64,000 bases of DNA from Rariglobus hedericola (GTDB lineage: Bacteria; Verrucomicrobiota; Verrucomicrobiia; Opitutales; Opitutaceae). The stretch lies in NCBI RefSeq assembly GCF_007559335.1, contig NZ_VMBG01000002.1, forward strand, positions 62,001 through 126,000, written 5' to 3'. The notes under the pieces are model-generated. The model was not told the origin of the DNA. It did no database searches and saw nothing but the letters and a program-made list of their open reading frames with translations. Made by a program: the position numbers and the translations under genes. Shown piece after piece: positions 1,957 to 34,329 of the stretch. The stretch's first letter is position 1; each line of letters starts with the position of its first letter.

Positions 1957-2232
1957 ATGACGACCGCGTCCTGCAAGCTCGCGATCAAAGCCCTCCCCAA
2001 CGCCCCGCGCAACGAACTCGCCGGCTGGCTCGGCGACACGCTGAAAGTCCGCGTCCACGCGCCGGCACTCGAAGGCCGCGCCAATGACGAGCTGTGCGCA
2101 TTCATCGCCGACACCCTCGCCCTCCCCCGCCGGGCCGTGACGGTTTTCCAAGGCGATAAATCCCGCCAAAAACTCCTTCATATCCAAGGCTTCACCTTCC
2201 CCGAAGTCCGCCAACGCCTCGACCCTTTGTAA
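1957..2232 (+). CDS. DUF167 / YggU family protein
   Basis: Small protein of 91 residues matching the DUF167 (YggU) family: LKVRVHAPALEGRAND followed by ALPRRAVTVFQGDKSRQKLLHI. Family members are small alpha/beta proteins of unknown biochemical role found across bacteria. The ATG at 1957 lies 14 nt after the preceding stop, so the two genes are probably co-transcribed. The stop codon TAA (2230-2232) is itself part of the left arm of an intergenic palindrome (2227-2247), so the gene ends inside the repeat. Family assignment is good; function unknown. Confidence 0.85.
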   Translation: MTTASCKLAIKALPNAPRNELAGWLGDTLKVRVHAPALEGRANDELCAFIADTLALPRRAVTVFQGDKSRQKLLHIQGFTFPEVRQRLDPL

Positions 2233-2247
2233 CTTAATAGGTTACAA
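2227..2247 (+). repeat. Palindrome copy 1 (GTAACTTAATAGGTTAC variant)
   Basis: Member of the seven-copy palindrome family, plus orientation. Arms TTGTAACTT and AGGTTACAA flank a short AAT centre; one position has changed from A to G, leaving a T/G pair. The left arm contains the TAA stop of the DUF167 gene. Confidence 0.85.
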
Positions 2248-2270
2248 TCCTCGCCTTCAGCCCTCCGCCA

Positions 2271-2295
2271 TTTTGTAACTTATTAAGTTACAAAA
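2271..2295 (-). repeat. Palindrome copy 2 (perfect, 25 bp)
   Basis: Perfect odd palindrome with 12-bp arms (TTTTGTAACTTA) around a central T at 2283, i.e. the minus orientation of the core GTAACTTAATAAGTTAC. It ends 8 nt beyond the stop of the MATE exporter and lies 46 bp centre to centre from copy 1. Confidence 0.95.
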
Positions 2296-2303
2296 ATCCG
2301 AAA

Positions 2304-3626
2304 CTACTTCGTCAGGCGTAAGAAACGGGCGGCTAAAAGCACAGCGGCGATGGCTAGGCCCACCGCTAGGCCAACCCAGATGCCCACCGCGCCCAAGCTC
2401 GTGTGCAACCCTAGCAGATACCCGCCGGGAATCGCCAGGAGCCAGTAAGCGATGAACGAAATCGTCGCCGGCACGCGCACATCGGCCAGTCCGCGCAACG
2501 CCCCCGAGCCGATTACTTGCGCGCCGTCGAAGAGCTGGAAAATCGCCGCCACCACGAGAAGTTTTGCCGCCAGGGCAACCACTCCGGGATCGTTCACAAA
2601 CCCTCCCGCCAACCACGGTCCGAACACCGCAAAGCCGATGGCAGAAACGCTCATGATCGCGATGGCCGTGACCAGCCCGCCGGTGGCGATCGGTCGCAGC
2701 AACTCATGCCGCCCCTCGCCCACCGCTTTGCCCACCCGCATACCCACCGCCATCGAAATCCCCAGCGGGAACATGAACATGAACGCGGCGCAACTGAGCG
2801 CGATCTGATGCGCCGCCAATGCCTCCGCTCCGATCCAGCCCATCATCAGCGCCGCCATCATAAACGCACCGACCTCGAAAAACAGCATCACCGCCGCCGG
2901 CACTCCGATCACCAGCATTTCGCGAAACCGGCGCGCCTGCAGTCCGCGCCACCAGGTATCCGGCCACGCACTACGGAAGCCCGTCGCCCGGCGCAGCCAC
3001 AAGATGATCGCGACGACCACGATCACTCGCGATGCCAGCGTGGCCCAACCCGCGCCCGCCAATCCCAGCGCGGGAGCCCCCCAGTGGCCATAAATCAGCA
3101 CCCAGTTCAGCACGACGTTGAGCGCCACGCCGCCGAGCATGATAAACATCGGCACCCACGGACGCCCCAACGCCTCCGCAAATTGCCGGAACACCTGAAA
3201 CACCAAAGTCGGCAGGATCGACGCGGTGATCAGCACGTAGAACGGGTTGACCGCCGCGAGCACTTCGGGCGGCTGGCCGAGCCGGTGAAACCACCCCATC
3301 AGCCCGAGCATCAGCGCGAATTCCACGAGTCCCGCGATCACGCCCAACGCCACGCCGTGCTGAAGCCAGCGTGCGCCCGCCTGATCGTCGCTCGCCCCGT
3401 GCTCGCGCGAAACCAGCACCGCGACCGGCAGCAACAACCCCAAGCCGACCACAAAAAATACCGAAAACACGCCGCTCGCAAAAGCCGACGCAGCCAATGG
3501 CACGGCTCCGAGGCGGCCGATCATCACGCTGTCGGTCACGCCCATGAGCATCTGGCTCACCTGTCCCACGATGATGGGCAGTGCGAGGCGCAGAGTGGCT
3601 CGGGCTTCTCGGAAATACACGGACAT
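2304..3626 (-). CDS. MATE family multidrug/metabolite exporter
   Basis: Inner-membrane cation-coupled antiporter of the MATE family, 440 residues, close to the usual 440-460, with about 12 hydrophobic segments. The N-terminus LALPIIVGQVSQMLMGVTDSVMIGRLG is a textbook MATE/NorM start region, and the two-fold repeat is visible in the second half. The ATG at 3626 gives the complete first helix. The gene stands alone between unrelated genes but is bracketed by two copies of the intergenic palindrome, one 8 nt past its stop (2271-2295) and one about 80 bp upstream of its start (3709-3729), both in the gene's own orientation. Substrate is unknown; such pumps export cationic compounds or metabolites. 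Confidence 0.92.
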   Translation of the reverse strand: MSVYFREARATLRLALPIIVGQVSQMLMGVTDSVMIGRLGAVPLAASAFASGVFSVFFVVGLGLLLPVAVLVSREHGASDDQAGARWLQHGVALGVIAGLVEFALMLGLMGWFHRLGQPPEVLAAVNPFYVLITASILPTLVFQVFRQFAEALGRPWVPMFIMLGGVALNVVLNWVLIYGHWGAPALGLAGAGWATLASRVIVVVAIILWLRRATGFRSAWPDTWWRGLQARRFREMLVIGVPAAVMLFFEVGAFMMAALMMGWIGAEALAAHQIALSCAAFMFMFPLGISMAVGMRVGKAVGEGRHELLRPIATGGLVTAIAIMSVSAIGFAVFGPWLAGGFVNDPGVVALAAKLLVVAAIFQLFDGAQVIGSGALRGLADVRVPATISFIAYWLLAIPGGYLLGLHTSLGAVGIWVGLAVGLAIAAVLLAARFLRLTK

Positions 3627-3916
3627 GCGGATAAATCCTATTCCTGCCCACCCAAGTCAAAGACCCAATGACGCCACCTTTCCTTGAGCCGTTTTTGGCC
3701 AAGCCAACTTGTAACTTATTAAGTTACAAATATGCATTTCTCGTTACTAATAAATTGTTTATTTAGTGATAAAATCACGATCTGAAGCGTCCCGATAGGA
3801 TCGGCTGATCTCAGATCAAAGCGGGGGGCCTTCTTTCAGTCAGAGGGCTCGTTACGACAATCGGGTTGCGACGGGAACTCTGGCTACGCAGCGTCAGTCC
3901 CATCGTTTATCAACTT
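3627..3916. other. Intergenic region between divergent MATE and lipoprotein genes
   Basis: This 290-bp gap holds palindrome copy 3 and, to its right, unusually AT-rich sequence (about 3731-3775). Two further short palindromes are visible: GTGATAAAATCAC at 3766-3778 and TGATCTCAGATCA at 3806-3818, both of a size suited to dimeric regulators. I see no gene here. Promoters for both flanking genes must lie in it. Confidence 0.6.
3709..3729 (-). repeat. Palindrome copy 3
   Basis: Perfect 21-bp odd palindrome with arms TTGTAACTTA around a central T at 3719, in minus orientation. It sits about 80 bp upstream of the MATE start codon, in the probable promoter region. Confidence 0.93.
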
Positions 3917-4270
3917 ATGCACACTTCCCTGCGCTCCGCTTTGATCATTGGCAGTCTCGTTGGAATGACCGGCTTCATGTCGGGTTGCTCCACCACGGAC
4001 GGCAAGTCCGCCACCAATCCGCGTCAGCCCGGTCCAGCCATCGGCCAGGGCGTGGGCGCGGTGGTCGGCTCGGTCGGCGGCAATGTCGTCGGCGCCGGCG
4101 TCGGTGTGGTCGAGGGCGCTTCCAGTGCCGCGAAAGGCGTGTTCACCAACGAGCCGCGCGTCGTGCGCGTGTGGCGCACCGAAACCACCAGCGACGGCCG
4201 CACCATTCAGGTGCCCTACGAGATTCTCGTGGACCAATACGGTCGTCCGATTGGCGATAAAAAGAAGTAA
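3917..4270 (+). CDS. Small glycine-rich lipoprotein
   Basis: Predicted lipoprotein of 117 residues. A hydrophobic signal sequence ends in the lipobox FMSGC, so the mature protein would be lipidated on Cys near residue 24. Residues about 40-75 are rich in Gly/Val/Ala with spaced glycines (AIGQGVGAVVGSVGGNVVG), resembling the glycine-zipper regions of membrane-associated lipoproteins. The C-terminal part (VPYEILVDQYGRPIGDKKK) is hydrophilic. The ATG at 3917 was preferred over one at 3866 because it directly begins the signal peptide. I do not recognise a named family. It is convergent with the LpoB-like gene and shares a bidirectional terminator with it. Confidence 0.75.
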   Translation: MHTSLRSALIIGSLVGMTGFMSGCSTTDGKSATNPRQPGPAIGQGVGAVVGSVGGNVVGAGVGVVEGASSAAKGVFTNEPRVVRVWRTETTSDGRTIQVPYEILVDQYGRPIGDKKK

Positions 4271-4354
4271 GCGGCGAACGCCGGTGGGTAGCTTCTCATC
4301 ACGCATCTGTAGCGCTTCAAATAAAACTGTAGCCATCGGATTTGCTTTGAGGAG

Positions 4355-4374
4355 GACGGACCTTCAGGTCCGTC
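4355..4374. repeat. GC-rich stem-loop (GACGGACC-TTCA-GGTCCGTC)
   Basis: Perfect 8-bp stem with a 4-nt TTCA loop in the 225-bp gap between convergent genes. A related, imperfect hairpin (GGTCCGACC...GGTC) follows about 45 bp later. This has the look of a REP-like intergenic element, but there is only one locus in the window. Confidence 0.5.
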
Positions 4375-4438
4375 ACCGTAACCATTTGGCGAATTTCATG
4401 ATGGTCTGGCCGGGAGGTCCGACCTTCTTTCCGGTCAC

Positions 4439-4476
4439 AAAAAAGCCGTCCCGCGAACTGCGGGACGGCTTTTTGT
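4439..4476. terminator. Bidirectional intrinsic terminator
   Basis: Ten-bp GC stem GCCGTCCCGC / GCGGGACGGC with a 5-nt loop, flanked by an A-run on the left and a T-run on the right, so it can terminate both the plus-strand lipoprotein gene and the minus-strand LpoB-like operon that converge here. Confidence 0.92.
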
Positions 4477-4495
4477 TTTCGCGTCGAGCGCCGGA

Positions 4496-5101
4496 TTACC
4501 AGCCGACGGCGGACTTCTTGGACTGCTTGGCGATCTCGCGGTCTTCTTCCCAGACGGTGAGGCCGGTCTTCACGTTGATGAGCGACATCTGGAACGTGTA
4601 AGTGTTCTGGGTGACGCCGTTGAGACGGTCGACCTGCTGGATGAGCTTCGCGTAGAGCGTGAAGTGCGGGGCGATGACCTTGGCCTTCTTGCCAGTGGTC
4701 ATTTCATCGAGCTCGGCGGCCTCGGAGGCAACGACGGCGCGCTCGCCGAGGCCCATCGTGTTCGTGATGGCGACCTTGCCGGTCTGGGTGAGGGCGACGC
4801 GGATCTTCTTGATGAGGAGATCGGTGTCGACGTTCAGCTGGGTGTTGTTGAGCACGCGGTCGATCGCGAGGACGGCGGGCTGCGACGGAGCGCGGTCAAG
4901 GGCGCCGGAGGTGAGCAGCGAGTTGATCAGCTGGTCGGCGGCATTGGACCAGTCCTGGGAGTTGATCCCGGCGGTGTTGAGGGCCTGCGGGCCGCTGGCG
5001 TCGACGTTGCGAACCTGCGCCGATTGGCAGCCGGAGAACACGAAGGCGACGGGTGCGAGCACGCCGGCGAGAAGAGCGGTTTTGAAGCGGAGTGTGGTCA
5101 T
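4496..5101 (-). CDS. lpoB: LpoB-like penicillin-binding protein activator lipoprotein
   Basis: Predicted outer-membrane lipoprotein, 201 residues, of the LpoB / CsgG-related family. In Enterobacteria LpoB reaches through the periplasm to activate the peptidoglycan synthase PBP1b. The signal peptide ends in FSGC (lipobox). The conserved region runs from SQDWSNAADQLINSLL to the C-terminal INVKTGLTVWEEDREIAKQ, the usual LpoB ending. The start at 5101 was chosen over an upstream in-frame codon because it begins the signal peptide. It is the last gene of a three-gene unit with a YcfL-like and a COG3014 lipoprotein; the ycfL-lpoB pairing also occurs in E. coli. Whether it acts on a PBP here is inference. 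Confidence 0.8.
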   Translation of the reverse strand: MTTLRFKTALLAGVLAPVAFVFSGCQSAQVRNVDASGPQALNTAGINSQDWSNAADQLINSLLTSGALDRAPSQPAVLAIDRVLNNTQLNVDTDLLIKKIRVALTQTGKVAITNTMGLGERAVVASEAAELDEMTTGKKAKVIAPHFTLYAKLIQQVDRLNGVTQNTYTFQMSLINVKTGLTVWEEDREIAKQSKKSAVGW

Positions 5102-5123
5102 GTGGAAAAAAGGGACGTGGAAA

Positions 5124-5549
5124 TTATTCACTGAGTTTCAGGACGAAATCAACCGCGCGGGGGTTGACCGCAACGGTGGAGATGGTGGTGGTTTCGCGAC
5201 CGAGGATGGTGATGGTCTTCCAGGACTCGTTGGGCGAGCCGATGGACATGCCGGTATCGCTGACCCACTCGAACTTGTAGCGCACGGTGCGGGGGTTGTT
5301 CTTCAAGTTCTCCAGCGTGGCCTGCACCTTGAGGAGGTTGCCGGAGACGGTGTCCTGATTCACCGAGTTGACGCGCACAGTGCGGGCGAGGGTGTTGTCG
5401 GTGACGACGCGTTTGTCGGAAATGTAGTTGGGCGTGGCCACCGGCTGGGCGCGTTCAACGCTGTTCACATTGGTGGCGCAACCGGAGAGGGCGACGAGCG
5501 CACCGGCGACCAGAAGGCTGCCGACGAGGAGACGGGGGGATGTTTTCAT
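5124..5549 (-). CDS. YcfL family (DUF1425) lipoprotein
   Basis: Lipoprotein of 141 residues with signal peptide ending ALSGC. The body, from RVNSVNQDTVSGNLLKVQ to LENLKNNPRTVRYKFEWVSD and the C-terminal AVDFVLKLSE, fits the DUF1425/YcfL family, an immunoglobulin-like fold predicted to be periplasmic. Its start overlaps the stop of the upstream COG3014 gene by 4 nt (ATGA), and the LpoB-like gene begins 22 nt downstream of its stop, so the three are almost certainly one transcript. Role unknown; its conserved pairing with LpoB suggests the envelope or peptidoglycan synthesis. Confidence 0.82.
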   Translation of the reverse strand: MKTSPRLLVGSLLVAGALVALSGCATNVNSVERAQPVATPNYISDKRVVTDNTLARTVRVNSVNQDTVSGNLLKVQATLENLKNNPRTVRYKFEWVSDTGMSIGSPNESWKTITILGRETTTISTVAVNPRAVDFVLKLSE

Positions 5550-7108
5550 TTGAGGAGGATTTGAGAAACGAGAAGGGGGGCGGTCGAGGAGACGCTTTTC
5601 ACATAGACCACATTAACCACGCCGGGGTCCAAAGTAATTGTTTTGGTCTGGGTGCCGGTGGTGAGGGTGAGCTGGCGGTCGGCCGGCGTGGCGATGCGGG
5701 CGTATTGGAACTCCTTGGGGAGCGTGATCCAAGTGCGCGTGTCGGCGATGTTGGTCGAGGCGTTGAGAACAGTCATGGTAACGCTGCCGATGAGACCGGC
5801 CATCGCGCTCTGGTCGCTCAACTGCTTCTGCACCGTGGCCTGGATGATCGCCTTGGTCGCGGTCGACACGAGGGTCTTGGTCAGGATGGTGGGCCACTCG
5901 TTTTTGAAGTCGTTGGCCACGACGCTGTCCATGCTGGCAATCGTGGCGGTGGCGGCGGATTGACCGCCGGCGGTCACGGTCAGGCTGGAGGCATAGTCAC
6001 CGTTGAACTTGAGCTTGGGGAAGGCCGCGCCGACGTAGGCGAGGCGGCTGGTCACGATGAAGGTGGGGATGTCGATGCGGATCTGGTCGCGCTCGGGGCC
6101 GGTGCCGGTTTCGAAGATGACGTAGGTGAGGTTTTCCGGAGCCTTGCCCTCGGCGGCGGCGGCGCCGAGATCGCGGTCGGCGATGACGTAGGGATTCTCG
6201 GGGACGAGGCTGGCGAGGCGCTCGAAGGACTTGCGACCGCGCTCCCAATCGGCGCCGTTTTCACCGGCGATGGAGAAGAACAGACCGTCGAGGAAAACCG
6301 CGAACGGGTTCACATAATCACCGTAGGCCTTGATCGGCGCGGTGGACTCGGCGAGAGCCTGATTAAGGGCGGGGCCGGTCTTGGGATCGGCCTGGGCTTT
6401 ATCGACGTCGTAGGAAGCGGTCTGGCCTTTCTCATCTTCAACTTTGCCTTCGCGGGCTTTGTCGGCCTCAGCCTGGGCTTCGGCGATACGCTTCTGGTTG
6501 ATATCGACGGCATCGCGCTGGCGCTGGAGGGAGCGATTCAACTCCACGCGGGCGGCGTCGCGCTGGCCCATCTGGAGGTAGTTGAGCGCCTTGTAGGCGT
6601 TCATAAGGACCTTGTCGTAAGCGCGGCCACGATAGGGAATGTTAGCCTGATTCGTGACGATCGAGAACGCCTCGGAGCCGACCTTCAACTTGGCTTGTTC
6701 CTCCCAATAATTCACGCGCTCTTCCGCCTGATCGAAGGCGGTGTTGGAACGTTTCGCGTAGCCAGCGGCGATCTCGGTGTGCGTGGGCGCGACGGGCACC
6801 GGCTCGGCCGGATCCTTCGGAGCGGCGACGGGCGGATGCGGGAGCTGGGTCTCGTCGGCGAGCACGGCCATGCGCAAGGTCGCGCCTTGCTCGAGGCGCC
6901 AGAGGAGCTCGTCTTTGCCACCGGCTTTGGAGGCGGCCTCCTTATCGGCGCTGGCGACGGCCGAAGCGATGCTCGCATTACGGAAGGAACTGGCGAGATC
7001 GGCGGACTGTTGCTGGTAGGTCTGACAGCCTGAGGCGAGGAGCAGGAGCGCGGCGGCTCCGGTAAACTGCGCAATCTGGCGTGCGCGTGCGGTCGATTTC
7101 ATGGACAT
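5546..7108 (-). CDS. COG3014 family lipoprotein
   Basis: Predicted lipoprotein of 520 residues; the signal peptide ends in LASGC. The middle (about residues 115-215: helical, with NAYKALNYLQMGQRDAARVELNRSLQRQRDAV) looks like TPR helices, followed by a charged helical segment and a beta-rich C-terminal half. This arrangement and the neighbours (YcfL, LpoB) match the uncharacterised COG3014 family. First gene of the three-gene unit; a terminator lies just upstream, separating it from the CsgG-like gene. A second possible start is at 7102 (MKSTARARQ); no clear ribosome-binding site distinguishes them. Function is unknown. Confidence 0.75.
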   Translation of the reverse strand: MSMKSTARARQIAQFTGAAALLLLASGCQTYQQQSADLASSFRNASIASAVASADKEAASKAGGKDELLWRLEQGATLRMAVLADETQLPHPPVAAPKDPAEPVPVAPTHTEIAAGYAKRSNTAFDQAEERVNYWEEQAKLKVGSEAFSIVTNQANIPYRGRAYDKVLMNAYKALNYLQMGQRDAARVELNRSLQRQRDAVDINQKRIAEAQAEADKAREGKVEDEKGQTASYDVDKAQADPKTGPALNQALAESTAPIKAYGDYVNPFAVFLDGLFFSIAGENGADWERGRKSFERLASLVPENPYVIADRDLGAAAAEGKAPENLTYVIFETGTGPERDQIRIDIPTFIVTSRLAYVGAAFPKLKFNGDYASSLTVTAGGQSAATATIASMDSVVANDFKNEWPTILTKTLVSTATKAIIQATVQKQLSDQSAMAGLIGSVTMTVLNASTNIADTRTWITLPKEFQYARIATPADRQLTLTTGTQTKTITLDPGVVNVVYVKSVSSTAPLLVSQILLK

Positions 7109-7149
7109 GAGTTGCGTGTTGAAGCGGAGAAAAACGGGAGCGGTTGATT

Positions 7150-7189
7150 AAAAAAGGCCGCCCGCCTCGGTGCGACGAAGGCGGGCGGC
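7150..7189 (-). terminator. Intrinsic terminator after CsgG-like gene
   Basis: Stem GCCGCCCGCC / GGCGGGCGGC with a 13-nt loop; read on the minus strand it is followed by CTTTTTT. It lies 19 nt beyond the stop of the CsgG-like gene and divides the five-gene lipoprotein region into two transcripts. Confidence 0.9.
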
Positions 7190-7208
7190 TGGCGAAAAAC
7201 GGCCGGGA

Positions 7209-8099
7209 TTATTCAGCCTCGGGATCGGCGACGTCGGTCTTCAGGCGGACCAGCGCGAGTTTATCGATGCCGGTGTCCTCGACGATTTCGGCCTGCGAGT
7301 TCTGCGGCGTGACGCGCGAGATCTTGACGGTGCCGACGGGCACTTCCTCTCGGCTCTTGTCGCCGGTGTCGGGATCGACGAGGTCTTCGCCGAGGATGAA
7401 CACTTCCCACACCTGGCCGACCTTGATGCCGGAGGTGTCATTGCGATTGATGGTCACGAGCTTGTCGCGCTTGGCGAGCACGCGGGCCGGGAACACGGCG
7501 TCGGACACGCGGGCCGAGATCTTCTGGGCCATCTCGCGGGTGATATCGATCAGGAGAACATCGCTGGACTCGCCCACCTTCTCGGTGGTGTTGCCCGACA
7601 GCGAATCGGCCTGGCGGCGCGAGACCTGGAAGTTCGTGCTGGCGACGGCGCGCTGGGTGGCGACCTCCGTGATCTTGGCGACGGCGGAGAGCTCGATAAC
7701 GCGGGCGGTCACGGTCTTGCCGAGGGAGGCGAGCTTGCGGGTCTCCATGCGGTCATTGAAACCGTCGATGCGGATGGTGAGGAGGTAGTCGGCCTGGTTG
7801 AACTGGAAGGCGGCACCGGACGCGCCGGCCTCCTTCGCGAGGGCGTCGGCATCGGAACGCTCGAGCACCTCGAAGCGCTTGGAGTTGAGCACGCGATCAT
7901 AGACCTGCGAGTCGAGCGCCTCGATCACGCTGGAGAGCGACAGGCCGACACCCTGCGTGGCCATGCGGGCCTTCACGGAATCGGTCGCGGCGATCTTGGT
8001 GATCGCGATTTTTTTCTTCGAAGGCGCGTCCTGCGCGGAGAGGCCGCCAACTAGGGCGACGCCGAGGGCGAGAATGGAGAGAATGCGGGAGAATTTCAT
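7209..8099 (-). CDS. CsgG/LpoB-like exported protein
   Basis: Secreted protein of 296 residues with a signal peptide (MKFSRILSILALGVALVGG, cleavage near LSAQD). The region from SLSSVIEALDSQVYDRVL to KRFEVLERSDADAL and DYLLTIRIDGFNDR is the CsgG / LpoB / TolB-N-like pattern of an alpha/beta domain that detects or forms outer-membrane assemblies. The C-terminal part (VLAKRDKLVTINRND...VGQVWEVFILGEDLVDP) is beta-rich and occurs in related CsgG-type proteins. No lipobox is seen. The start at 8099 begins the signal peptide; upstream in-frame sequence lacks one. It follows the PEGA-domain gene by 22 nt and precedes a strong terminator, so the two form an operon. Exact role unknown. Confidence 0.72.
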   Translation of the reverse strand: MKFSRILSILALGVALVGGLSAQDAPSKKKIAITKIAATDSVKARMATQGVGLSLSSVIEALDSQVYDRVLNSKRFEVLERSDADALAKEAGASGAAFQFNQADYLLTIRIDGFNDRMETRKLASLGKTVTARVIELSAVAKITEVATQRAVASTNFQVSRRQADSLSGNTTEKVGESSDVLLIDITREMAQKISARVSDAVFPARVLAKRDKLVTINRNDTSGIKVGQVWEVFILGEDLVDPDTGDKSREEVPVGTVKISRVTPQNSQAEIVEDTGIDKLALVRLKTDVADPEAE

Positions 8100-8121
8100 G
8101 ACGTGGAAATTTGAAATTAAA

Positions 8122-9381: not shown

Positions 9382-9588
9382 GTGGTATGGAAAGAGTGGA
9401 GACGACGAACAGACACGCTCCGGAACCGTTGGTAGCAACAATTCACTAGAGGTTATCCCTCATGCCAGAGCGGCCGGACGGGTCAAGCGACTTGGTTGCA
9501 GTAACCCGTCCGTCACCAGCCACCGAGACAAATGCCGCTTTGCAAAGCCCTTGGCCCCCGCCATGCTGCGCGCACTTCCCGCATCGGC

Positions 9589-11511: not shown

Positions 11512-11545
11512 TCCGAAAAACGCGCAGAACCCTCAAAAAAACAGC

Positions 11546-11584
11546 AAGGCAGGTTTGTAACTTAATAAGTTACAAACCTGCCTT
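11546..11584 (+). repeat. Palindrome copy 4 (perfect, 39 bp)
   Basis: Longest copy: perfect arms of 19 bp (AAGGCAGGTTTGTAACTTA) around central A 11565, plus orientation. The outer seven bases are not shared with other copies but are still fully self-complementary. Lies 34 nt after the LysM gene and 48 nt before the next start; AT-rich sequence follows it. No T-run follows the stem. Confidence 0.95.
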
Positions 11585-11632
11585 AATCATTTTAGTTTAG
11601 ATGGTTAAATTGGCTCAATTTTCCTGTTTTTC

Positions 11633-12517: not shown

Positions 12518-12530
12518 TCCGCTCTCTCCC

Positions 12531-16957: not shown

Positions 16958-16982
16958 CCGTCGCGTCCCCGCAAAGGCCTCA

Positions 16983-17444: not shown

Positions 17445-17524
17445 GCCTGCCAGTGCATCCGTCGGCGTTCGCCGCGCAAGTCGCGAATATTTCTTCCCGA
17501 CAGCCTATGGACACAACAGGGACA

Positions 17525-17556
17525 CAAAAAACCCGGCGGACTTTCGTCGCCGGGTT
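17525..17556 (-). terminator. Intrinsic terminator after rhodanese gene
   Basis: Stem ACCCGGCG / CGCCGGGT with a 9-nt loop; on the minus strand the stem is followed by TTTTTTG. It is about 30 nt beyond the stop of the rhodanese gene. Confidence 0.88.
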
Positions 17557-20867: not shown

Positions 20868-20890
20868 TCGCTACTCTCTCCGCCACTCCC

Positions 20891-21813: not shown

Positions 21814-21825
21814 CCGCCCCCGATC

Positions 21826-22650: not shown

Positions 22651-22661
22651 GCGGACTGCGC

Positions 22662-23495: not shown

Positions 23496-23623
23496 GTCAT
23501 CTGCGCCGGCCGGCGCATCCGCGGGCTTCGTCGTTTGACACCCCGCACGCCCAAAGCATCGTCGGGCCATACCGGCGACGTCTTCGTCGGAGAGCCAAAC
23601 CCCACCCCTGGCACGAGGTCCCC

Positions 23624-25024: not shown

Positions 25025-25091
25025 AGAGCGTTGCCAAAGCGTGCAGCGCACCATTGACCCCGGCGGTCCCCCTGCGCTATATCCGCCCCTT

Positions 25092-26624: not shown

Positions 26625-29600
26625 TGGCCGTCCGTCCCCGAGCGCCTCACGTGCGCAGCGTCCGCACGCCCGAGGCGCTCGCCTCGATGGCCGTGTGGCT
26701 GGAGTCTTTTGACGCCGCCACCCGTCAGCGCGGCAGCGAACTCTTCAAGAAGGGCGCCGTCACCAACGTCTGGTCCGAAGCCGATCACCTCGTCAAAGCA
26801 GAGCTGACCGACGACTACCGCTACACGCTCACGTTCTTCCTGACGCGCGGCGATTGGTCGTCTCGTTGCTCGTGCTCGACCACCGCCCGCTGCAAACACA
26901 GCCACGCCGCCGGCCTCGCCTGGATTCACAACGTCGAATCCGGCGCCCGCGATGGCCGCGATCCCGGTGATGCGCCCATCGTCCCCAAAACCGTGGCCGC
27001 CCCCGTCACCGCCGCGTCCACCGCCTCCGCCGCCCTCGAAAACGAACTCGCCGGCTGGCTCCGCGCCCTCACGCCCGATCCCGTCGCCGACAAAGCCTCC
27101 GCTGCCGACGCCTCGCATTTCGCCGGCCTCTCCGGCATCCGCGTGCGTCTTTCCATCCTCGGCACGTGGCACATCGAAACGCGCAACGCCTCCGATAAAC
27201 GATGGAAGCCCCCGTCGCAAAAATGGCTCACCGATCTCGCCCGCCTGCGCCCCGTTGATTTCGAATCGCTCGTCCCCGCCGAAGCCGCCCTCGCCTCCGC
27301 GCTCGCCGCCGAGGTCCGCCTCGCGCCCCACGGTTTGTCCGTGAAACAGCCGCTCCCGCCCGCCGCCGTCAACGGACTCCTCCGCACCACCGCCGCCCGC
27401 CCCGCGCTCACCCTCCCCGACGGCAATCCGTTCGTTATCGAGTCCGCCCCGCTCGTCCCCGAAGCCATCGCCTCCGCCGGCAAACCCGACCAACTCGACG
27501 TCCGGCTCGTCGCTCCCGACGGTCGCATCGCCGACTCCGCCAAGCTCATCGCGCCCCGCCCCGATCCGCTCTACCTCTTCGACGACCGCGTCTGGCGCGG
27601 CCCCCCGCCCGCCCCCTCCGCCAAACTCCCCGTAGCCGCCCTCTCCGACTCGCGCCTCCTCCCGCGCCTGCGCGCCGCCGGCCTCCGCCTCCCCGCCGGA
27701 CTCGCCGCCGAGGTCCGCACCATCACGCTCCGCCCTCACCTTCGCTGCTGGCTCTCCACCGCCATCGACGGCGCCGAGCGCGACTTCCACGCGCAGCTCA
27801 TCGCCCGCTCCGAAAACCCGCCTTGCGAACAACACTGGGCCGGCGCCCCCGTCTCCTGGCACTGGGCCAAAAACGGCACGCCCCCGCCCCGTATCGCCGG
27901 CGAACCCGTCATCGAGTTCGACCTCGCCGCCGCCCGCTCCGCCAGCGCCGCCTTCACCGCCGGCTTCCGCCTCAACTGGGACGGCTGGGCCGATTCCTGG
28001 ACGCGCACCGTCAACGACTCCTTCCCCGACGAATTCCTCGAGTGGCACGCCGCCCTCCCGCCCGATCTCACCGTCGAACTCTCCCCCGAACTTGCCTCGC
28101 TCCTCGGCGAACCGCTCCACGCCGAGATCGACGTCTCCTTCGCCGCCGCCCCCGGCGGCTCCGACCAAGACTGGTTCGACCTCACCGTCGGCCTCCGCGT
28201 CGCCGACTCCACGCTCTCCGCCGACGAAGTCGCCCTCCTCCTCAAAGCCCGCGGCAAATGGGTCCACCTGCCCCGCCACGGCTGGCGCCGCGTCGCCGCC
28301 GACACCGCGCTCGACCCCGCCACCGCCGCGACCCTCGACCGCCTCGGCCTCACCGCCGAAGACGTCTTCACCGGCGGACGCCCCGCCAAACACCGCCTCC
28401 ACGTCCTCCAACTCGCCCTCGAAGCCGAGGCCCTCGCCCACCGCGACGCCCTCCTCGTCCAAGTCCTCCAAGACAGAGCCGCCCGCATCGCCGCCCTCCC
28501 GCCCGCGACGCTCCCCGCCAACCTCCGCGCCACGCTCCGCCCGTATCAACTGGAAGGATACCAATTTCTCTCCCACCTCTCCGCCCAAGGTTTCGGCGGC
28601 ATCCTCGCCGACGACATGGGCCTCGGCAAAACCGTCCAAACCCTCGCTTGGCTCCTGCACCTTTCCGCCCGTAGCCGCGAGCGCCAGCGAGTGGACGCCG
28701 ACGTCCAACCCTTCCGCGCCTTGATCGTCTGCCCCAAGAGCGTGACCCACGGCTGGCTCGCCGAAACCGCCCGCTTCGCCCCCGACCTCGGCATTGCCGC
28801 CTTCAACACCGACGGAAAATCCGCGACCGCCGCCGTTACCAAAGGCCCGCAACTCCTCGTCGCCAACTACACCCAGCTCCGCCTCCACGCCGCCGCCTTC
28901 CGCGCGCAAGCCTGGGACGTCGTCGTCCTCGACGAAGGCCAGTTCATCAAAAACCCCGGCAGCCAGGTCGCCGTATCCGCCCGCTCCTTACGCGCCAAAC
29001 ACCGCGTCGTCCTCACCGGCACGCCCATCGAAAACCGCCTCGCCGACCTCTGGAGCCTCTTCGCCTTTGCCCAACCCGGCCTCCTCGGCGACCAAGCCAC
29101 CTTCCGCCGCCAGTATAACGAAACCGACCCGCAAGCCCTCGCCCGCCTCCACCGCCGCGTGCGCCACTTTCTCCTGCGCCGCACCAAAGCCCAAGCCGCG
29201 CCCGACCTCCCCTCGCGCACCGAGGACGAAATCATCGTCGAACTCGAAGGCGAACAACGCCGCCTCTACGACGCCGAACTCAAGCGCGCCCGCTCGCACC
29301 TCCTCGGAGTCGAGACGACCAAGGCGCTCGACGCCGTCCGCTTCCACGTCCTCGCGAGCCTTCTGCGCCTGCGCCAGATCTGCTGCCACCCCGCGCTCGT
29401 CGATCCGGTCCACGCCGAACTCCCCAGCGCCAAACTCGAAGCCCTCCTCGAGCGCGTCGAAGAACTCGCCGAAGAAGGCCACCAGGTCCTCGTTTTCAGC
29501 CAATTCGTCGGCATGTTGGAAATCATCCGCGACCGCCTCGTCGGCGCCGGCATCGGCCACCTCATGCTCACCGGCGCGACCGAAAACCGCTCCGACTTGG

Positions 29601-29929
29601 TCAACACGTTCCAAACCGACCCGACCAAAACGGTTTTCCTCCTCTCCCTCAAAGCCGCCGGCTTCGGCCTCAACCTGACCGCCGCGAGCTACGCCATCCT
29701 CTACGACCCGTGGTGGAATCCGGCCGCCGAGGCGCAAGCCATCGACCGCATCCACCGCATCGGCCAGACGAAGCCGGTGATCGCATATCGCTTACTCGCC
29801 GAGCACACCGTCGAAGAAAAAATCCGCCTCCTCCAACGCGAAAAAGCCGCGTTAGCATCCGCCGTCGTCCAGGAAGAGTCCCTCGCCACCGTCATGGACC
29901 TAGACAGCCTCAAACGCATCCTCGCCTAG
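26624..29929 (+). CDS. SWIM zinc-finger / SNF2 family DEAD-like helicase
   Basis: ATP-dependent DNA translocase of 1101 residues. The N-terminal SWIM zinc finger reads C-x-C-x5-C-x-H with Cys82, Cys84, Cys90, His92. A ~520-residue middle region of unknown fold follows. The SNF2 ATPase occupies about 635-1100: RPYQLEGYQFL, Walker A DDMGLGKT (about 663-670), Walker B-like VVLDEGQFIKNPG, VVLTGTPIENRLADLW, and helicase C-terminal motifs VLVFSQFV and AQAIDRIHRIGQTKPV. Such bacterial SNF2 proteins are thought to remodel protein-DNA complexes or RNA polymerase, but few are characterised. Translationally coupled to glyQS (TGATG). Confidence 0.93.
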   Translation: MAVRPRAPHVRSVRTPEALASMAVWLESFDAATRQRGSELFKKGAVTNVWSEADHLVKAELTDDYRYTLTFFLTRGDWSSRCSCSTTARCKHSHAAGLAWIHNVESGARDGRDPGDAPIVPKTVAAPVTAASTASAALENELAGWLRALTPDPVADKASAADASHFAGLSGIRVRLSILGTWHIETRNASDKRWKPPSQKWLTDLARLRPVDFESLVPAEAALASALAAEVRLAPHGLSVKQPLPPAAVNGLLRTTAARPALTLPDGNPFVIESAPLVPEAIASAGKPDQLDVRLVAPDGRIADSAKLIAPRPDPLYLFDDRVWRGPPPAPSAKLPVAALSDSRLLPRLRAAGLRLPAGLAAEVRTITLRPHLRCWLSTAIDGAERDFHAQLIARSENPPCEQHWAGAPVSWHWAKNGTPPPRIAGEPVIEFDLAAARSASAAFTAGFRLNWDGWADSWTRTVNDSFPDEFLEWHAALPPDLTVELSPELASLLGEPLHAEIDVSFAAAPGGSDQDWFDLTVGLRVADSTLSADEVALLLKARGKWVHLPRHGWRRVAADTALDPATAATLDRLGLTAEDVFTGGRPAKHRLHVLQLALEAEALAHRDALLVQVLQDRAARIAALPPATLPANLRATLRPYQLEGYQFLSHLSAQGFGGILADDMGLGKTVQTLAWLLHLSARSRERQRVDADVQPFRALIVCPKSVTHGWLAETARFAPDLGIAAFNTDGKSATAAVTKGPQLLVANYTQLRLHAAAFRAQAWDVVVLDEGQFIKNPGSQVAVSARSLRAKHRVVLTGTPIENRLADLWSLFAFAQPGLLGDQATFRRQYNETDPQALARLHRRVRHFLLRRTKAQAAPDLPSRTEDEIIVELEGEQRRLYDAELKRARSHLLGVETTKALDAVRFHVLASLLRLRQICCHPALVDPVHAELPSAKLEALLERVEELAEEGHQVLVFSQFVGMLEIIRDRLVGAGIGHLMLTGATENRSDLVNTFQTDPTKTVFLLSLKAAGFGLNLTAASYAILYDPWWNPAAEAQAIDRIHRIGQTKPVIAYRLLAEHTVEEKIRLLQREKAALASAVVQEESLATVMDLDSLKRILA

Positions 29930-29986
29930 TTTATCGTGTAAGCTACGGCACCGCCGCGCCATCCTGCGGTCCACCCCTTGAACACT

Positions 29987-30640
29987 ATGAAGCACTCTCC
30001 GCTTTGCTTGATCATGCTGGTTTTTGCCCTTTTCGCGACCGGCTGCTCCTCGACCTACTACAACACCCTCGAGAAATTCGGTTACGCCAAACGCGACCTC
30101 CTCGTTGACCGCGTTGAAAAAGCCCAGGACGCGCAGACCGAGGCCAAGGAGCAATTCGCCGACGCCCTCGAAAAATTCCTCGCCGTCACCAAGACCGACG
30201 GCGGCGACCTCCAGCGCAAATACAACGACATGAGCGCCGAGTTCAAGCGCAGCGAGGCGCGCGCCGAGGAAGTCCATGAGCGCATCGACGCGGTCGAGGA
30301 TGTCGCCGAGGCCCTCTTCAGCGAGTGGAAGCAGGAGCTCAAACAATACTCCAGCGCCTCCCTCCGCAGCGAAAGCCAGCGCCAGCTCGATACCACCCGC
30401 CGCAGCTACGACAACGTTCTCCGTCTCATGCGCCGCGCCGCCGATCGCATGGACCCCGTTCTCGCGACGTTCCGCGACCAGGTCCTTTTCCTGAAGCACA
30501 ACCTTAACGCCCGCGCCCTCGCCTCGCTCGACTCCACCAACCGCGAACTCGAGGCCGACATCTCCCGCCTCATCGCCGACATGGAAGCCTCCATCCGCGA
30601 GGCCGAATCGTTCATCAAGTCACTGCAGACGACCCCGTGA
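29987..30640 (+). CDS. DUF2959 family lipoprotein
   Basis: Predicted lipoprotein of 217 residues: signal peptide ending in FATGC (lipobox), then YYNTLEKFGYAKRDLLVDRVEKA, a segment characteristic of DUF2959, and an entirely helical coiled-coil body (EDVAEALFSEWKQELKQY, LRRESQ-type heptads) ending in ASIREAESFIKSL. The ATG at 29987 is preferred over the TTG at 29978. It is convergent with the WYL-like gene, whose stop begins only 2 nt beyond its own, with no terminator between. Function unknown. Confidence 0.85.
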   Translation: MKHSPLCLIMLVFALFATGCSSTYYNTLEKFGYAKRDLLVDRVEKAQDAQTEAKEQFADALEKFLAVTKTDGGDLQRKYNDMSAEFKRSEARAEEVHERIDAVEDVAEALFSEWKQELKQYSSASLRSESQRQLDTTRRSYDNVLRLMRRAADRMDPVLATFRDQVLFLKHNLNARALASLDSTNRELEADISRLIADMEASIREAESFIKSLQTTP

Positions 30641-30641
30641 T

Positions 30642-31064
30642 TTACTTCGCCGGTGCCGCAGGTGGCGAGGGCGGCACCGGGGTTGGCTGGGGCGCCAGCA
30701 CGTCGATATCGATCGATATCAAGCCGCGCGCTTTCGCACGGTAATCAGCGCGCGGTTTTTCGAATTTTTGCGCGGTCATTTTCAGCCCCGCGATCTCCGC
30801 CACCAGAAATACGCGCCAGCCGGGCGGCGGCTCGGTGTTGCTCCCGCCCGACGTCTGCCACGCGAGCAACGCCGGCTTGTCATCCGTCGCCTTGCCCAGC
30901 GCATGCGGCTCCACCGTGCGCTCCTGACCTTTGTAGGTAAACGTCACCACACTTCGCGCGCGCAACGCCTGCGTTAACACGGCCGCGTTGTCCGCTTCCG
31001 CCCCGAGGCTCGCCTGCACGCACACGGTCGCGCAAAACACTCCGATCACCCAGTTTCGAAGCAT
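30642..31064 (-). CDS. Exported WYL-like domain protein
   Basis: Protein of 140 residues with a signal peptide (LRNWVIGVFCATVCVQASLGAEA, split at its hydrophobic core). The mature part reads ALRARSVVTFTYKGQERTV, EPHALGK, LLAWQTSGGSN, GWRVFLVAEI and FEKPRADYR, which follows the pattern of a WYL domain; WYL is normally a ligand-binding module of cytoplasmic regulators and nuclease systems. The tail is Pro-rich. The second of two close ATGs (31070 and 31064) was chosen because AAGGA lies 8 nt before it. WYL in an exported protein is odd and is inferred from pattern only. Confidence 0.7.
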   Translation of the reverse strand: MLRNWVIGVFCATVCVQASLGAEADNAAVLTQALRARSVVTFTYKGQERTVEPHALGKATDDKPALLAWQTSGGSNTEPPPGWRVFLVAEIAGLKMTAQKFEKPRADYRAKARGLISIDIDVLAPQPTPVPPSPPAAPAK

Positions 31065-31091
31065 TGTCATAATCCTTAACCAGCAGACCTC

Positions 31092-31679
31092 ATGCCCGCC
31101 AATGATCGTCGTCCCCGCCTTCTCTTGATCAACGCATCGCTCGCCGGAGACGCGGGTAACTCTGCCGTATTTTTCGACGCAGCCCGGGCATTGCTCGCAC
31201 CGCAGGCCGACGTGAAACAACTCACGCTCGCACGCGATGGCACCGACCTTGCGACCCTCCTGCCCGCACTTGCCGAAGCCGATGGTTTTCTCTTCGGCAC
31301 CGGCACGCACTGGGATTCCTGGAGCAGTCTGCTGCAACAATTCCTAGAAAACGCCACGCCCGCTGAAGGCACGTCCGTCTGGCTCGGCAAACCCACCGCC
31401 GTGGTGGTCAGCGAACACAGTGTCGGCGGCAAAGGCGTCCTCTCCCGACTCCAAGGCGTGCTCGTCACCCTCGGCTGCAGCATCCCTCCCATGAGCGGAC
31501 TCGTGCTCTCCCGCGCCGCGCTCATCGCCGTGGATCACGACGCGCACGCCGCCCGCGATTTCTGGTGCCGCGACGACCTCTCTGTCGTTTGCCACAACCT
31601 CGTCGAAGCCGCCGCCGGCACGCACCACTGGCAAACCTGGCCCGTGGACCGCGAAGATTTCTCCGCCCGCTGGGCCTGA
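31092..31679 (+). CDS. NADPH-dependent FMN reductase-like flavoprotein
   Basis: Flavodoxin-fold protein of 195 residues. The N-terminal phosphate-binding loop LLINASLAGDAGNSAVFFDAA, followed by ADGFLFGTGTHWDSWSSLLQQFLE and LGKPTAVVVSEHSVGGKGVLSRL, matches the NADPH-dependent FMN reductase / WrbA-related group that uses FMN to reduce quinones or other substrates. No transmembrane or signal segment. It is divergent from the WYL-like gene with 27 bp between the starts, so both promoters must overlap. Palindrome copy 5 begins 33 nt after its stop. Confidence 0.82.
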   Translation: MPANDRRPRLLLINASLAGDAGNSAVFFDAARALLAPQADVKQLTLARDGTDLATLLPALAEADGFLFGTGTHWDSWSSLLQQFLENATPAEGTSVWLGKPTAVVVSEHSVGGKGVLSRLQGVLVTLGCSIPPMSGLVLSRAALIAVDHDAHAARDFWCRDDLSVVCHNLVEAAAGTHHWQTWPVDREDFSARWA

Positions 31680-31712
31680 TCCCTCCGCACACCCGTCGCC
31701 GAATTCTTCCTC

Positions 31713-31749
31713 AAACCAGTTTGTAACTTAATAAGTTACAAACTGGTTT
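31713..31749 (+). repeat. Palindrome copy 5 (perfect, 37 bp)
   Basis: Perfect arms of 18 bp (AAACCAGTTTGTAACTTA) around central A 31731, plus orientation. The outermost six bases (AAACCA/TGGTTT) differ from those of copy 4 but pair perfectly. It lies between the flavoprotein stop and the DUF4202 gene, followed by AT-rich sequence up to about 31815. Confidence 0.95.
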
Positions 31750-31857
31750 TCCCACTTTCTAATAATTACTTATGACTTCGATTTATTCAATGTTGAGGGT
31801 TATTATGAGATACGTTTGAGCGTGCCAAAGCCCGTCTGGGACGCGAACGATTGAGCC

Positions 31858-32445
31858 ATGTCAGCTTCCGCCTACACCAGAGCTCGCGAACTCATCGATT
31901 CCGCCCACGCCGCCGATCCCACGCGGACGGCTGATGGACGCGCGGCCGAGCTGGTTTACGCCGATCGCGTCGAGGCATGGGTTCTGAAGCTCGTTGCCGA
32001 CGCCCCACCCATCCTCGCCCTCGCCGCACGCTGCCAGCATCTTGAACGCTGGCTTACCCCACGCACCACCTTTCCGGAGGGCAAAGTGGGCTACCTCACC
32101 TGGCGCCGCTCGCTTTACGTCAAACAAGCCGAGCGCGCCCGCGAACTGCTCCTCGCCGCGGGCATCTCCGACATCGAAGCCGACGAAGTTCGCACCTGGG
32201 TTTCCAAGACCGGACTGAAAACCAATCCCGGCACGCAAGCTCTCGAAGACGCCGCCGTGCTCGTGTTTTTGGAAAACGAAATCGGTGACTTCGCCGCGCA
32301 ACACACCGAATACCCGCGCGAGAAGTTCATCGATATCCTTCAGAAAACCTGGCGCAAACTCAGCTCCGCCGCGCAACAAGCCGCTCTCGGCCTCGACCTG
32401 CCGCCCGCCATCGCCGCCCTCGTGCGCGAAGCACTCGCCGGCTGA
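31858..32445 (+). CDS. DUF4202 domain protein
   Basis: Cytoplasmic protein of 195 residues that matches DUF4202: AYTRARELIDSAHAADPTR at the start, LVYADRVEAWVLKL, AARCQHLERWLTPRTTFPEG, GYLTWRRSLYVKQAERA and ALEDAAVLVFLENEI. Conserved His/Glu/Asp residues (CQHLERW, LEDAAVLVFLE) recall the metal-binding pattern of HD-domain-like proteins, but this is inference. The gene is preceded by palindrome copy 5 and 108 bp of AT-rich leader. Function unknown. Confidence 0.85.
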   Translation: MSASAYTRARELIDSAHAADPTRTADGRAAELVYADRVEAWVLKLVADAPPILALAARCQHLERWLTPRTTFPEGKVGYLTWRRSLYVKQAERARELLLAAGISDIEADEVRTWVSKTGLKTNPGTQALEDAAVLVFLENEIGDFAAQHTEYPREKFIDILQKTWRKLSSAAQQAALGLDLPPAIAALVREALAG

Positions 32446-32471
32446 TCCTCGGAGTCGGCGTGACTTCGCAC

Positions 32472-33278
32472 TTACGACTTCATCCACAGTTCCGGCAGCA
32501 CGATCCGGTTGGGTTTCGTGGGATCAAACAATCCGAATATCGCCTGGCCGCTTTCCTTGCGGCGATTGATCAGCTCAAGGCGGTTCGGCTGATGCCAGCG
32601 CAGCGTGTGGACCGAGGCGATCCCGTCATCGGCCCGTCGTAACGTGATCTTAAACTGCCTCTGCTTGTTAACCGTCACATTCGTCCGCTCAACCGACTCC
32701 ACGATAAAATCGCCGAGACTCCCGTGCGTCAGCAGCCAGCCCACACGACGTCGTGCCCGCAACCACCACGCGAAGACTCCCACCGCGGCCAAAGGCAGCA
32801 ACACCACCGCAAAGCCGCCCATTCCCATTTGCCCCAATCGCGCGCCCTTCACGCAGGCCAGCGTTGGATCCTCCATCGAATAGACCACACTCACGTCCGC
32901 GCCTTCCTTCCAGCGCCGGCCGGTATAGAAGCACTCTCCTTCGATCCGTCGTTCATCCGGCCCCGTGAACTCAAATCGATACGCCTTCACCTGCACATCG
33001 TTGATCGAGAGATTCGTATTCGCCACGGACACGATGCGCCCGCGCGCTTCACCTGCCGGACCGTGATCCAGTCGCCATTGGTCAATGGACCGACGCGGAA
33101 AAAACGCCGCCGAAAACACCACGCCAAAGACCAGCAACATGAGTGCTACCAACAACACGCCGCGCCCAGCGGTTTCCCTCATGGCCCGTTTGCGCAATTG
33201 GACCGGAACCGTGCGCGGCACCGGAGCGGCCAGAAAGCGGATCATCTCGTCGTCGGCAAAAGCGGAAGGGGCGTCCAT
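32472..33278 (-). CDS. DUF3592-like membrane protein
   Basis: Protein of 268 residues with two membrane segments (about 40-62 and 153-172). The loop between them, GRIVSVANTNLSINDVQVKAYRFEF and ECFYTGRRWKEGADVSVVYS (both hydrophilic, beta-rich), has the layout of DUF3592 proteins. The C-terminal cytoplasmic part (VTVNKQRQFKITLRRADD and LINRRKESGQAIFGLFD) is beta-rich. The start at 33278 is one ATG of two close options (33293 upstream). Neighbours are unrelated; function unknown. Confidence 0.7.
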   Translation of the reverse strand: MDAPSAFADDEMIRFLAAPVPRTVPVQLRKRAMRETAGRGVLLVALMLLVFGVVFSAAFFPRRSIDQWRLDHGPAGEARGRIVSVANTNLSINDVQVKAYRFEFTGPDERRIEGECFYTGRRWKEGADVSVVYSMEDPTLACVKGARLGQMGMGGFAVVLLPLAAVGVFAWWLRARRRVGWLLTHGSLGDFIVESVERTNVTVNKQRQFKITLRRADDGIASVHTLRWHQPNRLELINRRKESGQAIFGLFDPTKPNRIVLPELWMKS

Positions 33279-33358
33279 GCGCCCAGCGTGCAAACGCGCT
33301 CCTTCCCAACAAGCTCAATACGCCGGCCCATCCGCCCTCAAGTCACGGTTCATCAAAC

Positions 33359-33742
33359 TCACCCCATCCCCTGCTTCGCCCCTGCCTGCACCCGCGCAGC
33401 CTTGGCCAGCAATTCCCCTTCGCATTGCGGCGAACCTCGCGCCAGATCCCGGCACAGTTGCGGACGTCGTTCATAAACCGTGCAGAAAAACTCACGCGCG
33501 CCCTCCGGCGTGGTTCTTACATCAAGCGCCGCGCAATGTCCGCCTTCCATGCGCATGTAGGCCCGGTTGCCAACGAACCCCGCGACGCGTTCCGCATCGA
33601 CGCCGAGCCGATCCCAGTCGGCGCCGGTGACGCGCACGTAGGTATCCAGATTTGAATGACAACAAACCCCGCAACGGAGGCAGTCGGTGATGGAATTGCT
33701 CAAGCCGCACTCGCGAAGCCGTGGGCCCGCGGGCACGGACAT
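33359..33742 (-). CDS. YkgJ family cysteine-cluster protein
   Basis: Protein of 127 residues of the YkgJ/CxxCxxCC family. Residues 20-28 read DCLRCGVCC, the family's zinc- or iron-binding cluster; further Cys are in HCAALDV, FFCTVYERRPQLCRDLA and SPQCEGE, as usual. The start at 33742 gives the common short N-terminus. Codon use and position fit a real gene; the long stretch before the next gene to the left (33279-33358) is free of features. Biochemical role unknown. Confidence 0.85.
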   Translation of the reverse strand: MSVPAGPRLRECGLSNSITDCLRCGVCCHSNLDTYVRVTGADWDRLGVDAERVAGFVGNRAYMRMEGGHCAALDVRTTPEGAREFFCTVYERRPQLCRDLARGSPQCEGELLAKAARVQAGAKQGMG

Positions 33743-33861
33743 CACCCTGCCCTCACCGCTAGTCCGACGCCAGCCCGCAGTGGACATCCGCCAGCGAGCA
33801 CCGGCACCACACGCCCCGCAGCCCTTAAGCGACCCGCAACTTATCCGCCCTCACCCCGCCC

Positions 33862-33886
33862 GTTTGTAACTTAATAAGTTACAAAC
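33862..33886 (+). repeat. Palindrome copy 6 (perfect, 25 bp)
   Basis: Perfect arms GTTTGTAACTTA around central A 33874, plus orientation. The right edge touches the first base of the stop codon (33887-33889, minus strand) of the XRE-type regulator, so it is the immediate 3' flank of that gene. Confidence 0.95.
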
Positions 33887-34279
33887 TCAGTTCAGCGGTT
33901 TCGGGCTGAGCGTGACGGCTTCGGGCGTTTCGCGGGCGGCGAGCCAGAGCAACAGGTGGATCATGCGCTCCGCGTCAGGCATCTGGGTGCCCGACACGAA
34001 ATAGTCCTGCACGCGCTGACGCGGCACTTCGAGCAGGCGCGCCAGATTGGTCTTCGTGCCGCGCGTGCGCAGGTGGGGACGGATTTGCGCGACCACTGCA
34101 TTCCAAAGCGGCGTATCGGCTCCGGGCCGCAGCGTCGCGCCCTTGCGCGGACGTTTGGCGTCCTTGCGACGCTGCGCGGAGCGTTGCGCCTGCTCGACGG
34201 CCAGCTCGGCCAAAATATCCAACAAACCCGCGATCGGTCTCAGCGTAGGCGGCACATCCACTCCCATTCCAATTTTCAT
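33887..34279 (-). CDS. XRE-type helix-turn-helix protein
   Basis: Small basic protein of 130 residues. The C-terminal half has a Cro/C1-type helix-turn-helix at about 74-113 (TKTNLARLLEVPRQRVQDYF then PDAERMIHLLLWL). The N-terminal half is helical and contains a strongly basic stretch (QRSAQRRKDAKRPRKG), unusual for simple XRE repressors and able to contact DNA or RNA. ATG 34279 is used; a GTG at 34288 is an alternative. The gene is bracketed by palindrome copies 6 (touching its stop) and 7 (about 30-50 bp upstream of its start) and is divergent from pdxH. It is the natural candidate for the factor that reads the palindromes, but nothing in the sequence proves it. Confidence 0.82.
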   Translation of the reverse strand: MKIGMGVDVPPTLRPIAGLLDILAELAVEQAQRSAQRRKDAKRPRKGATLRPGADTPLWNAVVAQIRPHLRTRGTKTNLARLLEVPRQRVQDYFVSGTQMPDAERMIHLLLWLAARETPEAVTLSPKPLN

Positions 34280-34306
34280 GGACGCCACTTTTAAGCACTC
34301 CGGATA

Positions 34307-34329
34307 TTTGTCACTTAATAAGTTACAAA
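34307..34329 (+). repeat. Palindrome copy 7 (one mismatch)
   Basis: Arms TTTGTCACTTA and TAAGTTACAAA around central A 34318; one mismatch (C 34312 where A would pair with T 34324). Plus orientation. Between the divergent XRE-type gene and pdxH, with AT-rich sequence to its right. Confidence 0.9.

Follow-up and report, generated by a model that had tools for sequence, protein, structure and literature searches.

The 64,000-nt stretch of Rariglobus hedericola DNA analysed here (contig NZ_VMBG01000002.1, positions 62,001–126,000; hereafter the window) carries seven copies of an AT-rich palindrome, and the gene of a small XRE-like helix-turn-helix (HTH) protein lies exactly between copies 6 and 7. 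This gene (33887–34279, minus strand) encodes 130 amino acids from its ATG, with an alternative GTG at 34288, and its product is the proposed cognate binder of the palindromes. Comparisons within the genome and among its relatives make a binding partnership of protein and palindrome very probable. We further consider it fairly likely that the palindromes are the dispersed cognate sites of this protein, in a two-part system that resembles repetitive extragenic palindromic (REP) elements and would depend on host machinery for its spread.

Palindromes of the window

Copy 6 (33854–33894, plus; core 33866–33882) directly adjoins the downstream end of the HTH gene, with an outer arm that overlaps the stop codon, and copy 7 (34298–34338, plus; core 34310–34326, GTCACTTAATAAGTTAC) lies 31 bp upstream of the start codon. 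Near the start of the window, the stop codon of a gene ending at 2232 falls within the core of copy 1 (2217–2257, plus; core 2229–2245, GTAACTTAATAGGTTAC), and copy 2 (2263–2303, minus; core 2275–2291) follows 13 bp past the stop codon of a MATE gene; these two copies form a helically phased pair, 46 bp apart. Copy 3 (3699–3739, minus; core 3711–3727) occupies the gap upstream of the same MATE gene. Copies 4 (11545–11585, plus; core 11557–11573) and 5 (31711–31751, plus; core 31723–31739) are each situated between tandem genes and show mirrored outer arms, aaggcagg/cctgcctt in the case of copy 4.

A search of the window allowing up to three mismatches returned 14 strand matches at these seven places, each copy having at most one mismatch on its better strand, as compared to 0.02 matches expected and a maximum of one in 100 shuffled sequences. 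The seven copies described in the original prediction are thus borne out. Its statement that five of them lie at or just after a stop codon holds when distances are measured from the element and fails when they are measured from the core. It had also assigned each copy a direction by the central A; the signs are as stated, but copies that occupy one and the same site in related genomes can differ in the central A/T, and the direction is therefore probably not functional.

Copy number, consensus and taxonomic spread

In the whole 4.15-Mb genome of this organism (G000), the pattern GTNACNTAATANGTNAC matches 63 distinct copies and the reversed control none, and a scan for the core with up to two mismatches gave 120 strand matches vs. 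one for the reversed pattern. According to our own simple gene caller, 18 of the 63 copies are intragenic, 29 lie between tandem, eight between convergent and seven between divergent genes, and one is at a locus edge; 17 of the intragenic copies are tied to a conserved host gene and one (L201) rests on the caller. Given that 0.925 of the window is predicted to be coding, genes hold fewer copies than their share, though they are not free of them. The motif is consequently neither at chance level nor as frequent inside genes as between them, and the earlier claim that no copy lies inside a gene body applies to the window and not to the genome.

A column count over 62 copies yields a 41-bp palindromic consensus, CCAAGCCAGTTTGTAACTTA-A-TAAGTTACAAACTGGCTTGG, with a highly conserved inner 23 bp and looser outer arms, 13 of the core positions being fixed by the search pattern itself. 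The idea that the outer arms are copies of host flanks, raised by an NnrD-like site, was dropped, as the arms fit the element consensus.

Beyond this genome, a scan of named genomes for GTMACTTAATAAGTKAC gave at least 119 stretches. Among 80 titles listed, most were Opitutaceae or Verrucomicrobiota and one was Akkermansiaceae, next to single matches from unrelated groups, whose flanks differ from the element among the matches listed. A covariance model built from 79 copies matched, under strict filters, in six of 132 genomes of the order, all from the family of R. hedericola; its figure of 117 counts strand matches, the palindrome matching both strands, and is therefore not a copy number. On a contig labelled Akkermansiaceae (L103), four palindromes surround an HTH homolog, so that the element may extend beyond the family or this bin may be mislabelled.

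Matched arms and helical phasing

Across the 79 aligned copies, 79.6% of cells pair, and changes in the arms are two-sided in 202 cells (99.8 in shuffles) vs. one-sided in 24. Copies also keep regular distances from each other. Core to core, 49 distinct neighbor pairs are spaced by 44–47 (6 pairs), 53–58 (18), 64–69 (16), 75–78 (4) or 114–149 bp (5), and the 44 pairs below 100 bp show a best period of 10.4 bp (R = 0.66), none of 20000 jittered sets being as strong. A scan of 21 genomes for pairs at 31–61 bp found 36 distinct pairs, all at 44–47 or 53–59 bp, and a scan at 60–90 bp found 21, all at 65–69, 75–78 or 87–90 bp, two of the four pairs at 90 bp being one tandem repeat. Both scans require a central A in the first copy, and the three spacing sets overlap, with a few pairs being related copies. 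Close pairs near 46, 56, 66, 77 or 88 bp hence present one helical face. The spacers between paired copies are unrelated in one genome (G047) and in part alike in another (G018). Because arms change in matched pairs and neighbors are helically phased, these patterns point to a protein site on duplex DNA, not to an RNA hairpin.

The HTH protein and its flanking palindromes

At other loci, HTH homologs were likewise found between palindromes (beside one in a single case), with the palindrome type going with the HTH type. These first loci had been chosen by their palindromes, and we therefore searched 56 genomes with a profile of the protein, which gave 50 matches in 28 genomes. Within 320 bp of these homologs, a palindrome scoring at least 9 was present on both sides in 24 cases, on one side in 13 and on neither in 13, as compared to a flanking palindrome in five of 394 control windows. 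For 36 genes that could be compared at score 5, the 17-bp cores up- and downstream were identical in 26 cases, differed at one or two positions in seven and were unrelated in three, i.e., the flanking palindromes match in 33 of the 36 homologs scored on both sides.

The AlphaFold2 model of the protein comprises a confident bundle at residues 61–110 (pLDDT 86–91; mean 68.6) and an unreliable N-terminus, and the modelled fold may resemble that of XRE regulators, to which most of its Foldseek matches belong, none of them significant. Pfam HTH_3 and YdaS matched weakly and below cut-off, PHROGs gave a weak “transcriptional regulator” for at most three of 13 members, and NCBIfam had no match for the protein. 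Among the matches listed by searches of the open-licence literature, none described an HTH gene with such palindromes on either side.

Palindrome type and resident HTH type

The palindromes fall into about 12 types, e.g., TGTTCGTAATACGAACA, which occurs with the HTH helix HRAR[IV], and GTAACCYAATAGGTTAC, often found with PKQR. Distances between HTH proteins and between palindromes are correlated (Mantel r = 0.28, n = 44, 0 of 5000 permutations; shared ancestry uncorrected). At the sites surveyed in relatives (see below) together with PabB, 70 of 79 palindromes of types A, B or C match a resident HTH type (permutation p = 5e-5), or 65 of 68 without genome G001, the HTH types being assigned by hand. 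Genomes of the genus without an HTH gene contain zero (G002), zero (G009) and six (G012) pattern copies. The original prediction had proposed testing the neighboring XRE-type protein for binding; bracketing and type agreement, both read from sequence, lend support to this suggestion and make the gene between copies 6 and 7 the key lead.

Copies inside genes

The reading frame stays open through intragenic copies, which translate to CN[LV][IL]S[DY]K, with CHLIGDT for one B-type copy, and thereby add peptides such as CNLIS[DY]K to conserved enzymes. Hosts confirmed by Pfam are Fmt, TatD, Peptidase M32, class-V aminotransferase, allophanate hydrolase, NAD(P)HX dehydratase, P-type ATPase, a methyltransferase and an HPPK/anthranilate-synthase-like fusion, while the names AMP-ligase, helicase, epimerase, DUF1365 and MGMT are our own reading, outside Pfam confirmation. 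Two solved cysteine desulfurases show a gap at the position of the insert. The PabB-like protein has two or three sites that are filled in the majority of the genus members inspected and empty elsewhere in the genus. One open frame (L002:658–2673, minus) combines HPPK, anthranilate synthase N-terminal and chorismate-binding domains. Counted by eye, the right arm in G000 often reads GTGAC (Asp) in intragenic and GTTAC (Tyr) in intergenic copies, which suggests a protein-level constraint on arm change inside genes.

Turnover at shared sites

With a chimeric query, 12 sites were surveyed in 11 genomes of the genus, 119 of the 132 cells being readable. Fixed patterns scored 58 of these as intact type A, B or C, nine as decayed and 52 as having none; by eye, two G012 cells scored empty carry a palindrome in which a single pair is mismatched, and some further cells may contain relics. 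The palindrome found at the same site in a relative is often of another subfamily, and 10 of the 12 sites have at least two types, the G000 copy counted. Some loops hold two palindromes, one in G007 combining types A and C. Intact copies account for none of 33 cells in G009, G011 and G012 vs. 58 of 86 in the other eight genomes. A comparison of third codon positions (0 of 414 different in the core, 209 of 556 in the flanks) was unusable, as the core bases are fixed by the pattern.

A separate observation concerns G004, in which a 1.8-kb insertion sequence and a 0.46-kb derivative have an identical, locus-specific palindrome on both sides (L314, L315, L316, L317, L318). The flanking copies measure 35–44 bp by eye, and L316 encodes a DDE_5 transposase. 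For this insertion sequence, the whole palindrome appears to act as target duplication.

Interpretation and alternatives

In the two-part system that we favor, a dimer of the HTH protein would bind the duplex palindrome, and in phased pairs two bound dimers would touch. Sites would decay once the HTH protein is absent, and with the arrival of a new HTH type, palindromes of the new type would displace the old ones at the spots where inserts are tolerated. Since the HTH protein shows no catalytic domain, cutting and joining would be left to the replication, repair or transposition machinery of the host. A further step, which we put forward tentatively and as less likely than not to hold in full, is a self-spreading system of palindrome and tiny HTH protein without transposase domain. 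Here, the bound protein could guide host machinery, so that new copies arise on the same helical face, even within genes and in frame there, and competing protein types could overwrite each other's copies at shared sites.

Several observations weigh against the two-part system. No transposase domain can be recognised in the protein, none of its family matches exceeds the cut-off, and its Foldseek matches, although mostly XRE regulators (Cro, c2, HipB and HigA among them), all have E-values of 0.3 or worse. In six of seven genomes, the A-type HTH gene occupies the same syntenic position, and the gene itself is therefore not hopping. XRE repressors commonly autoregulate via a nearby palindrome, which alone would explain one flanking copy. 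At score 9, 13 of the 50 homologs have no palindrome beside them, at least two of those that do (L458, L477) are flanked by GC-rich palindromes of an unrelated kind, the profile was built from 13 palindrome-adjacent genes and some of the genomes searched were picked for having palindromes. Protein and palindrome also part company in single genomes. The 77% complete G001 has B palindromes and no B-type HTH was found; G011 has a divergent HTH, zero pattern copies and D-type relics; G013 and G016 have covariance model matches and no HTH match; and G012, without a detected HTH, keeps one intact copy at PabB and, at the TatD and P-type ATPase sites, near-intact copies in which one pair is mismatched. 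Moreover, the 12 surveyed sites were picked for having a G000 copy. No empty and filled sites were found so closely related that a target duplication, which together with a transposase and terminal repeats marks an IS or MITE, could be recognised.

The main rival is a functional network of chromosome sites, in which the HTH protein acts as global regulator or nucleoid-associated factor and palindromes are selected at useful places, their type changing with the resident protein. SlmA and Noc, nucleoid-occlusion proteins with tens of palindromic chromosomal sites, some of them intragenic, provide a working model. The retention of about the same codon position while the type changes, the helical phasing and the vertically kept A-type HTH locus would fit such a network. 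Likewise, the largest gap on C1 of G000, 624 kb without a pattern copy (430349–1054302; p = 0.012, uncorrected), lies near a sampled sign change of the GC skew. However, this skew derives from only 20 samples of 20 kb, and the largest gap on C2 is ordinary (p = 0.28). Many sites also fall in the middle of open reading frames of unrelated enzymes, and relatives seem to lack a palindrome there (52 of 119 cells, of which at least two were misscored); loops hold zero, one or two palindromes, with some spacer absent from empty relatives. We regard a functional network as a serious though rather unlikely explanation. SlmA and Noc share with the element described here the tens of palindromic sites for one DNA-binding protein across the chromosome, some inside genes, but belong to another protein class with another site, whereas the sites studied here are inserted elements, complete with flanking arms, that turn over from one species to another. 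XRE-family repressors with operators, such as 434 Cro, P22 c2, HipB and HigA, would be similar in combining a dimeric HTH protein with a symmetric, AT-centred site upstream of their own gene. In contrast to these, the palindrome here is present in dozens of copies, many of them in coding DNA, a second copy lies behind the HTH gene, and no toxin or phage context was noticed.

It is improbable that the copies are ordinary selfish coding palindromes, comparable to Rickettsia palindromic elements (RPEs), with the HTH gene being one of many adjacent genes. In-frame copies in conserved genes would agree with this, and a review describes such insertion for RPEs (PMC10969869). However, matching brackets in 33 of 36 HTH homologs across genera (control 5 of 394) and a palindrome type that follows the resident HTH are at odds with a chance neighbor. 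RPEs and the coding palindromes of Wolbachia are alike in placing in-frame palindromes in conserved genes and being absent from other homologs. RPE sites are shared between species. Differences from RPEs (PMC10969869) are a length of 41 bp vs. about 150 bp, the host phylum Verrucomicrobiota, a cognate HTH gene and type turnover per site.

Movement of REP elements by a REP-associated tyrosine transposase (RAYT) of the Y1 type is very improbable. Small dispersed palindromes, dimers and intragenic copies are reminiscent of such elements, Y1_Tnp is absent from G002, which has zero copies, and intragenic GTAG REPs were reported to be most numerous in Opitutus terrae of the same family (PMC3733652). 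Yet neither GTAG nor CGTC occurs as a tag in the conserved flanks, G009 and G011 have Y1_Tnp and zero pattern copies, and no palindrome core was seen in the stretches examined at 20 of the 29 Y1_Tnp matches, both own ones included, which leaves a RAYT/Y1 transposase unsupported as partner. REP/REPIN elements with RAYTs do resemble the present system in their dispersed, high-copy small palindromes, singlets and doublets, partly intragenic location, a gene flanked by its own palindromes and lineage-specific types. They differ in that the 62 own copies end in CCAA...TTGG, without GTAG/CGTC tag at the stem foot, that the palindrome here is nearly symmetric with helically phased doublets, and that an XRE-like HTH protein takes the place of the Y1 transposase as partner. 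As two defining features of REPs are missing and RPEs are set apart by length and host, the element, which within the order as sampled was confined to the family of R. hedericola, is assigned to no known family.

RNA 3'-end hairpins or terminators, to which five of seven window copies after stop codons and a sequence able to form a hairpin might point, deserve equally little credence given seven divergent and 18 intragenic, in-frame copies among 63, 202 two-sided vs. 24 one-sided (G-U) changes and helically phased pairs; in the copies inspected, the 23-bp inner hairpin has no T-run immediately behind it, though TTTT does come after the extended stem of copy 5. From the three options of the original prediction, i.e., operator, RNA 3'-end hairpin or mobile palindrome, the protein-bound and the dispersing palindrome are thus supported and the RNA hairpin is not.

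The proposed partnership would link gene-invading dispersed palindromes to a definite small DNA-binding protein instead of a tyrosine transposase. Tens of natural protein-site pairs with co-varying specificity could serve as a data set for HTH recognition, and the origin and persistence of coding palindromes would become directly testable. For Fmt, TatD, cysteine-desulfurase-like and PabB-like enzymes, the survey suggests that such inserts are tolerated, gained and exchanged.

Additional observations

Viral contigs containing the 17-mer (14 stretches) were taken as unrelated, their flanks being unlike the element and several resembling phage promoter operators. In four of them (L037, L039, L040, L041), the 17-mer stands just behind a promoter-like TTGACA/TATAAT, and in phage contigs it is probably an independent operator. 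Among the 20-kb samples of G000, one on C2 (600001–620000; L512) has a G+C content of 35%, vs. 54–63% in the others, and looks foreign.

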